IMG/VR virus record: IMGVR_UViG_3300037507_002131
Span: 1-20,749 of that record
DNA from: a virus
Reading direction: 5' to 3' (one strand)
Length of the DNA stretch: 20,749 nucleotides
Below the pieces are notes generated by a model that saw only the letters and a list, made by a program, of their open reading frames with translations, did not search any database and was not told where the DNA came from. The translations under genes were made by a program, and so were the position numbers. How positions within the stretch are numbered: the stretch's first letter is position 1; each line of letters opens with the position of its first letter. Positions 3,969 to 15,753 of the stretch are shown piece by piece.

Positions 3969-4290
3969 CAAGGCGCCGTTCGGTCTCGTTCGCCTCACGG
4001 GCCTGTTTCAGCAGGTCCGCGACGGTCTGTGCCATGACTTCGGCCGCGAACAAGACGCCGCGCCAGTAGTCCGACGGCACCACCACGGGCGGCACGGGCG
4101 GCGGCTCGGGGCGATCGGCCACGGTCTGCGCCCACGCCAGCAGCTTCTCGCGACTCTTGCCCGTGGGCGTCCCTCCCGACTTCCACCGCGTCACCGCGTC
4201 CCGAGGCACCCCGATGCGCTTCGCTACCTGCGACTGCGAACTGCGCGCCGCCTCTTGGGCCACCAGCGCCAACGCCTTTGGCACATCCAT
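3847..4290 (-). CDS. HTH phage repressor-like protein
   Basis: The start is ATG at 4290 on the minus strand, preceded by GGAGG with an 8-nt spacer; an upstream in-frame ATG at 4314 has no such site. Of 147 residues, 1-55 form a Cro/CI-type HTH: MDVPKALALVAQEAARSSQS, then QVAKRIGVPRDAVTRWKSGG (turn-helix with R/W/K recognition positions). A Pro-rich linker (PEPPPVPP) leads to a helical region that may mediate oligomerisation. No S24/LexA peptidase motif is visible, so RecA-type autocleavage is unlikely. The last 40 residues overlap the convergent + gene and are low in conservation signals. It is divergent from a ribbon-helix-helix gene across a 105-nt spacer, the classic lysogeny-switch position. 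Confidence 0.75.
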   Translation of the reverse strand: MDVPKALALVAQEAARSSQSQVAKRIGVPRDAVTRWKSGGTPTGKSREKLLAWAQTVADRPEPPPVPPVVVPSDYWRGVLFAAEVMAQTVADLLKQAREANETERRLVTQFAATLAPTDPTGTESSRRGTSRAAPHTARHRDSEPRE

Positions 4291-12689: not shown

Positions 12690-12693
<4 letters not shown>

Positions 12694-13100
12694 CCGACCG
12701 TGACTACGTGACGTACCGTGACACCGTGGTGGACCGCAAGAAGCGCCCACGTCGCCCGTATGGCGCGCTTCCGGTGGCGCTCTTGCACCTGTTGGACGAG
12801 CAGAGTCCCCAGAGCACCACCGCACTGGCGCAGCGCCTACCTGACCATTCGGTCCATCAGATCCGCGTTACGCTCGGGCGCATGACACACGCGCGCACGG
12901 TGGCCCGCTGCGAGGGGGGCTGGCAGATTGGCGCGTGCGCCACGGTCCCGCGGGTGCCGCGCGCCAAGGAGCCGGAATGGACGCCGGTGCCCTGGATACA
13001 TCCTATCCGACGACGCCTGCTCGGACTGCCCGTGGCAGAGGCTCGACGGGACGTTCCCGAAACGGATTTCGGGAACCCCCTTCGGAAGGTGGCCGCATGA
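12690..13100 (+). CDS. Winged-helix-like protein of unknown function (136 aa)
   Basis: ATG 12690 in an ATGA overlap. Residues about 24-75 look like a winged helix: PYGALPVALLHLLDEQSPQS, then TTALAQRLPDHSVHQIRVTL and RMTHARTVARCEGGW, the last two being the recognition helix and wing. The C-terminus is Pro/Arg rich and unstructured. MarR/wHTH folds of this size bind DNA, so a replication or regulatory DNA-binding role is plausible. A perfect 9-bp hairpin lies within its last codons. Confidence 0.65.
13054..13075. repeat. Perfect 9-bp inverted repeat near gene end
   Basis: TTCCCGAAA (13054-13062) and TTTCGGGAA (13067-13075) surround CGGA. It ends 21 nt before the next ATG (13097). No T-run follows. 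It may be an operator, an mRNA hairpin affecting reinitiation, or a tetraloop-like stability element. Confidence 0.6.
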
Positions 13101-13342
13101 TCACCACGAACGGCGAACTCCGCGCCGCGATCACACAGGCCGAGATGTGCGCCGGCCGGCTGACGATGCGCGGCCATCACCTGACCATCGGCGAGCGCAC
13201 CGTGATCGCGCGCCTGCTGACCGATCTCGCGCAGATTGGACGCCGCGCGTTCGATCCGACGGCACGGGTGGACATGACGGCCGAGCCGCGGGCCATCCGA
13301 GACGACGACACGGCGCCGTCGTTGTTTGGGGATGCGGCGTGA
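13097..13342 (+). CDS. Small protein of unknown function (81 aa)
   Basis: ATG 13097 overlaps the upstream TGA (ATGA). The product is MITTNGELRAAITQAEMCAG, then a helix HLTIGERTVIARLLTDLAQI and a polar acidic tail ending in SLFGDAA. The S-L-F-G tail after an acidic stretch resembles a clamp- or partner-binding peptide motif at a disordered C-terminus, a weak suggestion only. It stops in a GTGA with the next frame. Confidence 0.6.
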   Translation: MITTNGELRAAITQAEMCAGRLTMRGHHLTIGERTVIARLLTDLAQIGRRAFDPTARVDMTAEPRAIRDDDTAPSLFGDAA

Positions 13343-13518
13343 AGCGCAATGTTCGGGTTTGGTTCGGCCCGTCGACTTTGGTATTCTCCCTTGTCGGTGT
13401 TGCAGCCACCGACCAGATTCTCGTGGAGCATCAGCGCCCCGAAGTCTCCGTGCCCACCGTGCAAGCGGTGGGGCTGCACACGGAGACTCGGGGCGTTTTG
13501 CGTGAGGTGGTACAATGA
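13339..13518 (+). CDS. Possible small protein overlapping RNA-like hairpins (59 aa)
   Basis: A GTG in a GTGA overlap opens 59 codons (MKRNVRVWFGPSTLVFSLVG... then VAATDQILVEHQRP and VPTVQAVGLHTETRGVLREV) whose stop overlaps the next ATG (ATGA at 13515-13518). Coupled overlaps at both ends, the rule in this operon, argue for coding. The same bases form two strong hairpins with a T-run, arguing that the interval may instead (or also) be a structured RNA. The protein has no recognisable domain. Evidence is balanced; I report both. Confidence 0.4.
   Translation: MKRNVRVWFGPSTLVFSLVGVAATDQILVEHQRPEVSVPTVQAVGLHTETRGVLREVVQ
13359..13387 (+). promoter_or_regulatory. Possible promoter for structured RNA
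   Basis: TTGGTT (13359-13364) and TATTCT (13382-13387) are separated by 17 nt on the + strand, giving a predicted start about 13393-13394, exactly where the first hairpin begins. The boxes are only partial matches (3-4 of 6 each). Confidence 0.4.
13393..13499 (+). ncRNA. Candidate structured small RNA or attenuator with terminator-like hairpin
   Basis: Hairpin 1: GTCGGTG (13393-13399) pairs perfectly with CACCGAC (13407-13413), 7-nt loop. Hairpin 2: CGCCCCGA (13435-13442) pairs with TCGGGGCG (13488-13495); after a one-base bulge, GTCTCCGTG (13444-13452) pairs with CACGGAGAC (13479-13487). An inner stem CCCACCG/CGGTGGG (13453-13459, 13466-13472) has a 6-nt loop and 6-nt bulge. That is 24 base pairs, then TTTT (13496-13499). 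A 5' stem at the predicted start and a 3' GC stem plus T-run are the layout of a terminated small RNA of about 107 nt; alternatively it attenuates the downstream replication genes. It lies just before the Cys-rich gene, helicase and organiser. Confidence 0.55.
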
Positions 13519-13736
13519 ACGGACAGAATATTCCCGCCGATGCGTCGTGCGAGTCGTGCCGCTGGTTTGTGGCCCTCGACAGTGGCGTGCGCGGGTACGT
13601 GGAGACGCACGACGGGCATTGCTCCTTTGCCCCGCCAGTAGTCGTGTGGACGCGGGACGGCAGTACGTACACTGAACGTCCGGAAGTCAACGACACGGAC
13701 CTGTGCGCACAGTGGACTGAGGCGGCGACTGAATGA
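13515..13736 (+). CDS. Small Cys-rich (CxxC) protein (73 aa)
   Basis: ATG 13515 follows GAGGTGG, a good ribosome site, and overlaps the previous frame's stop. MNGQNIPADASCESCRWFVA has CxxC at 12/15; HCSFAPP supplies Cys36 and the C-terminal TDLCAQW supplies Cys64, so four Cys can bind one zinc. The pattern C-x-x-C-R-x-F...G-x-C...P...P-x-V...D-x-C-x-x-W is widespread among small phage and bacterial proteins of unknown function. It directly precedes the helicase (ATGA overlap). Confidence 0.7.
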   Translation: MNGQNIPADASCESCRWFVALDSGVRGYVETHDGHCSFAPPVVVWTRDGSTYTERPEVNDTDLCAQWTEAATE

Positions 13737-14929
13737 CGGCCGATCCATTCGCGCCGACGCTAGACATCCGGAAAGCCCGCGAAGCCCGCGCCGCGTTGGT
13801 GTGCGGATGGTGCGGCGGGCCGGTCGATGTTCCGCAGCCGGGATGGCTCCCCGCATCCGGCGCCACGGCATACTGCACCGCGCACCATGCCATTGAGGGG
13901 CGCCACCCGCTTGGCGTACTCGCGAACGCTTTGGACGGCGCCGAGTGGTTCCACGACATTGGATCCGACGATTTGGTGTTTTGGCCGTGGCAGGCCATGA
14001 ACGACCTTGCGGGACCTCTGGTGCAAGGCCGGATCACCTACCTGCCGGCGTTCCCTGGCGGCGGGAAAACGACGTTCCTGACGCACTGTATTGCGTTTTG
14101 GTTGCAGCAAGGCAAGACGATCACCTATCTGCCGCTAGAAGCGGACGCGTCGGAGGTCGTCGCGCGTCTGGCGTGCTATCGCGTCGGGGTCAGTGCCGAC
14201 GAAACGCTGTCGAAGCGACTTCGGATCCGTGCGGACCGTGGGGACGTGGAAGCGGCGTATCAGTTGGCCGAAGTGAACGCGGAATACCGGCGACTACGCG
14301 AGGATCCGGATATTGGGATGCGGCTCCGTATCGAGCCGATTGAGGCGCTGACAAAAACGTCGTTTCGCAAGGCGATTCACGCCTGCGAGGCGATGGAATC
14401 TCATCTGCTGATCGTCGATCACATCGACCACGTCGAAGCCGACGAAAACGAATCCGGGAACGACATTGCGCTCAGCAATCACCTGCAAAGCGCCGCGCTC
14501 AAAGCGGTCAAGCGGATGGCGATTCCGGCCGTGTTGGCTACGCAGCTCAACAGTTCTAGGACGGGCGGCGATAAGCTCGCGCACTTCCGGCCTCCGCTTA
14601 TGGATTGGATGTATAACAAGGGGAAAAAAGACATGATCGCGGCTGGCGCCTACGGACTGTTTCGCCCGATGGATCCGGACGCGACCGACGAGGAGGTGTC
14701 GAGGGTGACCTCCGGTCGTGCGGATCCGGCGACGATTTTGCTTCCCAATACGATGGGCGTGGCGCGGATGAAAGCCCGCTATGGATCCGGGCTGGCGCAA
14801 CGCTCGGTGTTCTTGGGCTATCATCAGGGGCGCATTACAGACTTGGACGCGACGGAACGGCGGGCGCTGTCGGCGGCCGAAACGGGTGTGCGCACGGGGC
14901 GGTCGGCCTCTGACTTCGGGGGCCGGTAA
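13733..14929 (+). CDS. DnaB-like replicative helicase/ATPase
   Basis: 398 residues from ATG 13733 (ATGA overlap). The N-terminus carries a zinc-ribbon-like CGWCGGP (Cys24, Cys27) and YCTAHH (Cys48, His51/52). The RecA-type core follows: Walker A FPGGGKTT (107-114), LPLEADASEVVARL (motif 1a-like), Walker B LLIVDHIDH (225-233), and a sensor segment AVLATQLNSS (266-275). This is the layout of hexameric DnaB/RepA-type helicases, with a short zinc-bearing N-terminus instead of the usual DnaB N-terminal helical domain. It would unwind duplex DNA at the phage fork; the next gene product probably loads it. The TAA shares a base with the organiser ATG, so the two are translated together. Confidence 0.82.
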   Translation: MTADPFAPTLDIRKAREARAALVCGWCGGPVDVPQPGWLPASGATAYCTAHHAIEGRHPLGVLANALDGAEWFHDIGSDDLVFWPWQAMNDLAGPLVQGRITYLPAFPGGGKTTFLTHCIAFWLQQGKTITYLPLEADASEVVARLACYRVGVSADETLSKRLRIRADRGDVEAAYQLAEVNAEYRRLREDPDIGMRLRIEPIEALTKTSFRKAIHACEAMESHLLIVDHIDHVEADENESGNDIALSNHLQSAALKAVKRMAIPAVLATQLNSSRTGGDKLAHFRPPLMDWMYNKGKKDMIAAGAYGLFRPMDPDATDEEVSRVTSGRADPATILLPNTMGVARMKARYGSGLAQRSVFLGYHQGRITDLDATERRALSAAETGVRTGRSASDFGGR

Positions 14930-15753
14930 TGCCACGTAAACGGTTTGTGTCGCCAGAGTTTTTCACGCACGGCGAGCTGTATGACGCCGAGGTGGCGACG
15001 GGGCTTCCTTTAAGGCTGGCGTACGCCGGCCTTTGGACGGCGTGCGACCGCCGAGGGTTGTTCTGGTGGAAGCCGCGAGAAATGAAGCTCCACATCATGC
15101 CGTACGACGCCGTGGACTTTGAATCGGTGCTCTGGGCGCTCGAGTCCTACGGGTTCGTCGAGGTGTATGTCGTTGATGGCAAACGCTTTGGGCTTGTTCC
15201 GTCATTTGATCGGTGGCAGTCGTTTCATAAGAACGAAATACCGTCCGACGTGCCAGAGCCATCCAATGGCGGGCGTGAGTCATCCAAAGGACGGCGCGAG
15301 CCATCCCCGTCTGTTGCAGTTGCAGTTGCTACCAGTACTGCGGTTGCTACCTCAACCGCAGTTACAACAGGGGGCGACGCTGACGCGCCGCGTCCTGAGA
15401 AAAAGCGCGAGACGTTCTCGCATTTCCCGGACGCGGACCGGGCCGCCGCCCGCGAAATCTGGACTCGGATCCGTGGCCCGATCTCGGCTGAGAAGATCGC
15501 CAAGTGTCTCGGCCCCATATGGCCGAAGCCGGGGCAAGACGATCGACCAACCGGAGCGGATCTGCTCAAGGCGCTCACCACGTACTGTACGCTGGTGAGC
15601 AAGGGCAAATCCGCGCCGTTCGCGAAGATTGAACGAGCTGCCGATCTGCTGGTGCCACTGTGTGGGACGCATACCGAAACCGACCGGATCGCGCGGTACA
15701 ACGCGGCGTTCATGCTGATTCATGGTCACCTGCCGCAAAGGGTGGCGGCATGA
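14929..15753 (+). CDS. Phage replisome organiser / replication initiator
   Basis: 274 residues from ATG 14929 (TAATG overlap with the helicase). The N-terminal 110 residues (MPRKRFVSPEFFTHGELYDA, LPLRLAYAGLWTACDRRGLF, SFDRWQSFHKNEI) match the winged-helix domain of phage replisome-organiser proteins. A disordered linker about 115-150 is Ser/Pro/Ala/Val rich (SPSVAVAVATSTAVATSTAV) and is encoded by the ori-like repeats. The C-terminal half (EIWTRIRGPISAEKIAKCLG...) is helical and may contact the helicase, like the DnaD/DnaI-type or lambda O family plan. It probably binds the phage origin inside its own gene and brings the helicase encoded just upstream. Confidence 0.78.
   Translation: MPRKRFVSPEFFTHGELYDAEVATGLPLRLAYAGLWTACDRRGLFWWKPREMKLHIMPYDAVDFESVLWALESYGFVEVYVVDGKRFGLVPSFDRWQSFHKNEIPSDVPEPSNGGRESSKGRREPSPSVAVAVATSTAVATSTAVTTGGDADAPRPEKKRETFSHFPDADRAAAREIWTRIRGPISAEKIAKCLGPIWPKPGQDDRPTGADLLKALTTYCTLVSKGKSAPFAKIERAADLLVPLCGTHTETDRIARYNAAFMLIHGHLPQRVAA
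15313..15362. other. Candidate replication origin within organiser gene
   Basis: A 50-bp segment in the linker codons is rich in repeats: GTTGCA twice (15313, 15319), GTTGCTACC twice (15325 and 15343, 18 bp apart), and a perfect 10-bp inverted repeat ACTGCGGTTG (15337-15346) / CAACCGCAGT (15353-15362) with a 6-nt centre. Lambda-type phages place initiator-binding iterons in the middle of the initiator gene, which is the layout here. Just upstream (15200-15240) the DNA is locally more AT-rich, a possible unwinding region. No binding evidence. Confidence 0.55.

Follow-up and report, generated by a model that had tools for sequence, protein, structure and literature searches.

A shared, putative promoter-RNA element, probably a control switch, ahead of three replication modules in uncultivated viruses

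The closest published analogue of the element presented here appears to be IsrK of the Gifsy-1 prophage, in which a promoter is followed by a short structured RNA, a leaky intrinsic terminator and read-through into the downstream operon, and the neighboring orf45, which overlaps the next gene, is conserved in its nucleotides but not in its amino acids (PMC4825925). The resemblance, compared by description, is one of layout, i.e. promoter, short RNA and terminator before an operon (PMC4825925), and not of membership. IsrK adjoins antiterminator and antirepressor genes, whereas the element precedes replication modules, its open frame covers the RNA itself, and no target in trans is known for it. 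Another small phage RNA with a link to replication control is lambda OOP, 77 nt in length, the promoter of which matters for the control of DNA replication (PMC12197685); however, OOP is antisense to cII, while the element lies in sense orientation within its operon. Short conserved boundary sequences have been proposed to make mosaic junctions (PMC3029335), and the element resembles these, as well as morons, in being a short conserved join and an insert with promoter and terminator-like parts that is absent from a relative, contig L011. In morons, however, promoter and terminator flank a gene, whereas no selected gene is found between the corresponding parts here.

The element was analyzed in a 20,749-base uncultivated virus record (IMGVR_UViG_3300037507_002131; 67% G+C), the whole stretch of which we refer to as the window. 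Upstream of the element, small genes encode a DUF3310 protein, a protein that gives a weak HTH-like hit and one unknown product; those downstream encode a Cys-rich protein, a DnaB-like helicase and a replication initiation protein, in the following arrangement:

13339..13518, + strand: open 59-codon frame across the element, with GTGA/ATGA overlaps with the genes at both ends
13359..13364, + strand: -35-like hexamer TTGGTT; TTGG invariant and at the same distance in four sequence types
13382..13387, + strand: -10-like hexamer TATTCT, 17 nt after the -35; T1, A2 and T6 invariant
13393..13413, + strand: hairpin 1, 7 bp with a 7-nt loop TTGNNNC; folds in all members
13414..13434, + strand: linker, 21 nt in all members of the alignment, variable in sequence
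13435..13495, + strand: hairpin 2, a two-part stem; stems kept in four sequence types
13496..13499, + strand: T-run TTTT; six T (TTTTTT) in L009, CTTTGTGT in L007
13515..13736, + strand: next gene, a small Cys-rich protein; by tblastn found only in the window among the loci fetched, with no match in related loci
13733..14929, + strand: DnaB-like helicase (PF03796, phrog_19), replication module of the window
14929..15753, + strand: replication initiation or organiser protein (phrog_16167)

Based on these features and on comparisons to related contigs, we propose that the element probably acts as a common control switch instead of encoding a protein, and we see an even chance that it is a cis-acting RNA control region, namely an attenuator leader or a small RNA, made from its own promoter, that gates the replication operon. 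RNA polymerase would start at the internal promoter near 13393, and the nascent RNA would form the 5' hairpin at once and later the long terminator-like hairpin. Many transcripts would stop near 13500, yielding a stable product of about 107 nt, and read-through transcripts would express the replication genes. Transcripts from the upstream genes may pass, with ribosomes coupled via the open frame running through the hairpin. Initiation, termination, control of read-through and any action in trans are in this scheme our interpretation of the sequence. That a structured RNA or an attenuator precedes the replication genes had been suggested in a preliminary description, and gains support from the conservation of the layout in four sequence types. 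The parts named there, i.e. a promoter-like pair with 17-nt spacing, a perfect 7-bp hairpin at the predicted start and a two-part stem ending in TTTT, are all present at the positions listed above.

In relatives the -10-like hexamer reads TAGACT, TATGCT or TAGGGT, and T1, A2 and T6 stay invariant although the codons there change. The promoter core, TTG-17-TA...T, is invariant at 6/6 positions in the four sequence types (P 2.4e-4, against a background of 14/48 invariant positions in that stretch), with at most 4/6 in other registers, and this represents a fair test because the core was named before any relative was known. The TGG within the -35 doubles as a Trp codon. By consensus the predicted promoter is weak: 7/12 positions of the sigma-70-type consensus are matched at a spacing of 17 nt, which is below the scan threshold, and a simple promoter scan of the window did not flag the TTGGTT/TATTCT site. 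Only 5 nt separate TATTCT from hairpin 1, which sits at the expected start point, and the transcript start is predicted at or near 13393. In L028, a single C to T change in hairpin 1 preserves a G-U pair. A pairing between one arm of hairpin 1 and the ribosome-binding site of the next gene, seen by eye, was dropped as it fails in L009.

Hairpin 2 consists of an outer stem of 17 pairs with one bulged A and an inner stem of 7-8 pairs closed by a GCAA tetraloop, with a 6-nt bulge on the 3' side; a simple terminator would not usually have conserved bulges of this kind. The G+C-rich stem of an intrinsic terminator is present, but the T-run comprises only four residues, compared to about 6-8 typically; it is likewise TTTT in L028, and is interrupted in L007 and L042. 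A simple terminator scan of the window did not flag hairpin 2 with its T-run. Support for both the promoter and the terminator-like end comes from conservation. The fold itself is pronounced, with -65.3 kcal/mol for 13393-13505 (113 nt) against -43.4 +/- 3.5 for shuffles (z -6.3), and 13431-13500 ranks 1/2068 among the 70-nt windows (z about -7.9; next distinct region -6.3). That second most extreme region, 15331-15400 (z -6.3), is within the organiser gene and arises from a repeated VATSTAVATSTAV coding stretch. In coarser scans, the fold of the element ranks only seventh among the 70-nt windows of L007 and falls outside the top seven in L042. None of 2000 synonymous recodings of the frame (0/2000) reaches the native fold, and the fold of hairpin 2 hence does not simply follow from the peptide sequence.

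The same structure might serve RNA processing: RNase III would cut at hairpin 2 in an operon transcript that runs through, such that the regulator and replication messages are separated and stabilized and no internal promoter is needed. We regard this as unlikely. The hairpin is intergenic, irregular and about 61 nt long, with the conserved 6-nt 3'-side bulge and a GNRA loop, and with phage T7 early sites as the reference for the stem length that RNase III needs, the lower stem appears long enough; by this analogy, only the shape is compatible. The conserved promoter core, the fixed 5-nt gap to hairpin 1 and the T-run would be left unexplained. Two hairpins starting from the predicted transcript start, before early genes, also recall the put RNA of HK022, where two stem-loops directly follow an early promoter, as in putL (PMC9378689). 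By analogy, the hairpins would load on RNA polymerase as a nascent-RNA antiterminator, such that later terminators in the replication region are passed. This is very unlikely in our estimate, as put spans about 70 nt, with adjacent stem-loops arranged as a V that includes a triplex (PMC9378689), while the element differs in length (112 nt), spacing (21 variable nt between the stems) and fold, and its second stem ends in a T-run that suggests stopping rather than passing of terminators.

Relatives were reached by a terminase search and by a pattern search. Direct searches of viral contigs with the helicase, organiser, Cys-rich and 59-codon proteins found none, in contrast to the TerL search. 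In the pattern, the peptide core was specified by its amino acids alone and third positions were left free. Leaving aside L027 and L031, which are unrelated coding matches, its hits nonetheless agree at third positions, with the exception of one Thr codon (ACC or ACG). L027 and L031, together with the DNA pattern hits in L032 and L033-L036, were rejected as chance matches, lying in other contexts and lacking the combination of a promoter and two hairpins. In total, the element is carried by five uncultivated-virus contigs, the window, L028 (= L041), L007, L042 (= L029) and L009, which represent four distinct hairpin sequences, as L007 and L042 do not differ in the hairpins. No gaps are needed to align the 112-nt element, and the promoter-hairpin-hairpin layout is common to the four sequence types. 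With a covariance model, the five carriers score 124-131 bits and nothing comparable occurs in the other 22 contigs searched; four of the five matches belonged to the model's own alignment, and the result is therefore informative on the remaining contigs. Many of the relatives are contig fragments in which absence of the element cannot be read. The core pattern had no match in bacterial genomes or in named phages; a plasmid match of 27 nt at E 0.4 was rejected. At gathering score the element matched no Rfam family; the best of the loose matches had E 0.56, and the loose hits mir-3130 and ssnA were far below their cut-offs. The result is a concrete, predicted RNA element with no counterpart found in Rfam, carried by viruses that are represented by metagenomes alone.

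Selection acts at the nucleotide level. In the element alignment, 7/64 paired columns vary compared to 24/39 unpaired columns (Fisher P 9e-8). A compensatory change, from A-U to C-G, occurs at pair 51/96, and is the only one; the one-sided changes at 17, 68, 88 and 94 (four) keep a standard pair through G-U. Of the 128 cells, two are non-pairing when read as + strand (2/128) compared to eight as - strand (8/128), and as judged from the sequence, the + strand gives the best reading of the structure. Covariation, which the preliminary description named as a check, is limited to a single compensatory pair and is not significant by shuffling (130/500, four sequences), and neither is the retention of pairs compared to random placement (P 0.14). 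Both are non-significant because most pairs do not vary, and we consequently rely on the contrast between paired and unpaired columns.

Alternatively, the region could be a normal small gene, coupled to its neighbors, with codons that form a fold by chance. The open frame overlaps the upstream gene in the members read, with 52-58% protein identity, but we find this reading highly improbable, as the variable columns are spread evenly over codon positions (8/8/8 unpaired, 2/2/3 paired), in contrast to a third-position share from 47% (the most diverged gene) to 83% in neighboring genes of the same genome pairs. When the 16 codons before the hairpins are included, about 1/3 of the variable columns of the whole frame are third positions by hand tally. 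Between L007 and L009, 7% of four-fold sites differ in hairpin 2, compared to 32-38% in four neighboring genes, and synonymous recoding destroys the fold. An excess of third-position, i.e. silent, changes between relatives, as expected of protein-coding sequence, is hence not observed for the 59-codon frame, and its product matched 0 families in a protein family search. As changes are equal over codon positions and the silent sites of the hairpin are frozen, the frame is unlikely to be a conserved protein; it is probably at most a coupled leader frame, and may matter as a ribosome path. A dual function that includes coding, as suggested earlier, thus remains unsupported. Third-position changes that break the stems would have spoken against the structured RNA; the pattern seen is the reverse, with the silent sites of the hairpins frozen.

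The element is always located directly before replication-region genes, which are of three different types: the Cys-rich gene and DnaB-like helicase in the window, an HNH gene with a D5/P4-type primase further on in L007 and L009, and an HNH-like gene with a prim-pol/DnaB protein in L041 and L042. The proteins of the window and of L041/L042 have a DnaB_C domain in common; tblastn gave no helicase match between them, and the whole modules were not matched. L007 and L042 are 94% identical upstream of and through the element, and the match extends to +111, where the T-run region ends. In L011, the upstream gene shared with the window (80%) is joined directly to a helicase gene of L011 without the element. 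The three modules, the L007/L042 break and the clean absence in L011 identify the element as a discrete unit at the module seam, and are the new observations of this work.

This arrangement would also fit a DNA-level element, i.e. a recombination boundary sequence or a single-strand replication signal, with the fold acting as DNA: homology between L007 and L042 stops at the 3' end of the element, the element is the common join to three replication modules, and it is present in the window where L011 lacks it. We nevertheless judge this quite unlikely, as most changes permit G-U pairing on the + strand and give mismatches on the other, and the promoter core and T-run would be unexplained. The element could be both an RNA signal and, through its identity, a place of recombination. 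More speculatively, and with rather low probability, the RNA switch may be a standard interface, where the same promoter-RNA-terminator is kept within a single virus family and unrelated replication machines are plugged in behind it, such that it controls the operon and provides an identical stretch for exchange. The element also suggests how mosaic phages may swap whole replication modules yet keep control. In contrast to most predictions of this kind, natural variants are available: the element occurs ahead of three modules, L011 lacks it, and one base pair has changed in a compensatory way.

Further observations concern the surroundings. Tandem diverged copies of a small protein precede the element in L007 (2389-3715) and L009 (2389-3772), sharing a C-terminal motif with endings such as YASPLRGAA, YGSPFARGAA and FAHPRGAA; they look like repeated regulator genes, and one related copy is present in the window (12690-13100). 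L020, in which the element was not found, has a strong inverted repeat just after DUF3310 (4069-4138), which was rejected as a copy of the element because its sequence is unrelated. L011 displays a very strong fold of two adjacent hairpins at 14809-14878 (z -8.7, coarse scan). Finally, strong hairpins occur at the corresponding place downstream of terminase in L007 (12265-12334) and L009 (12277-12358), and are possible terminators.
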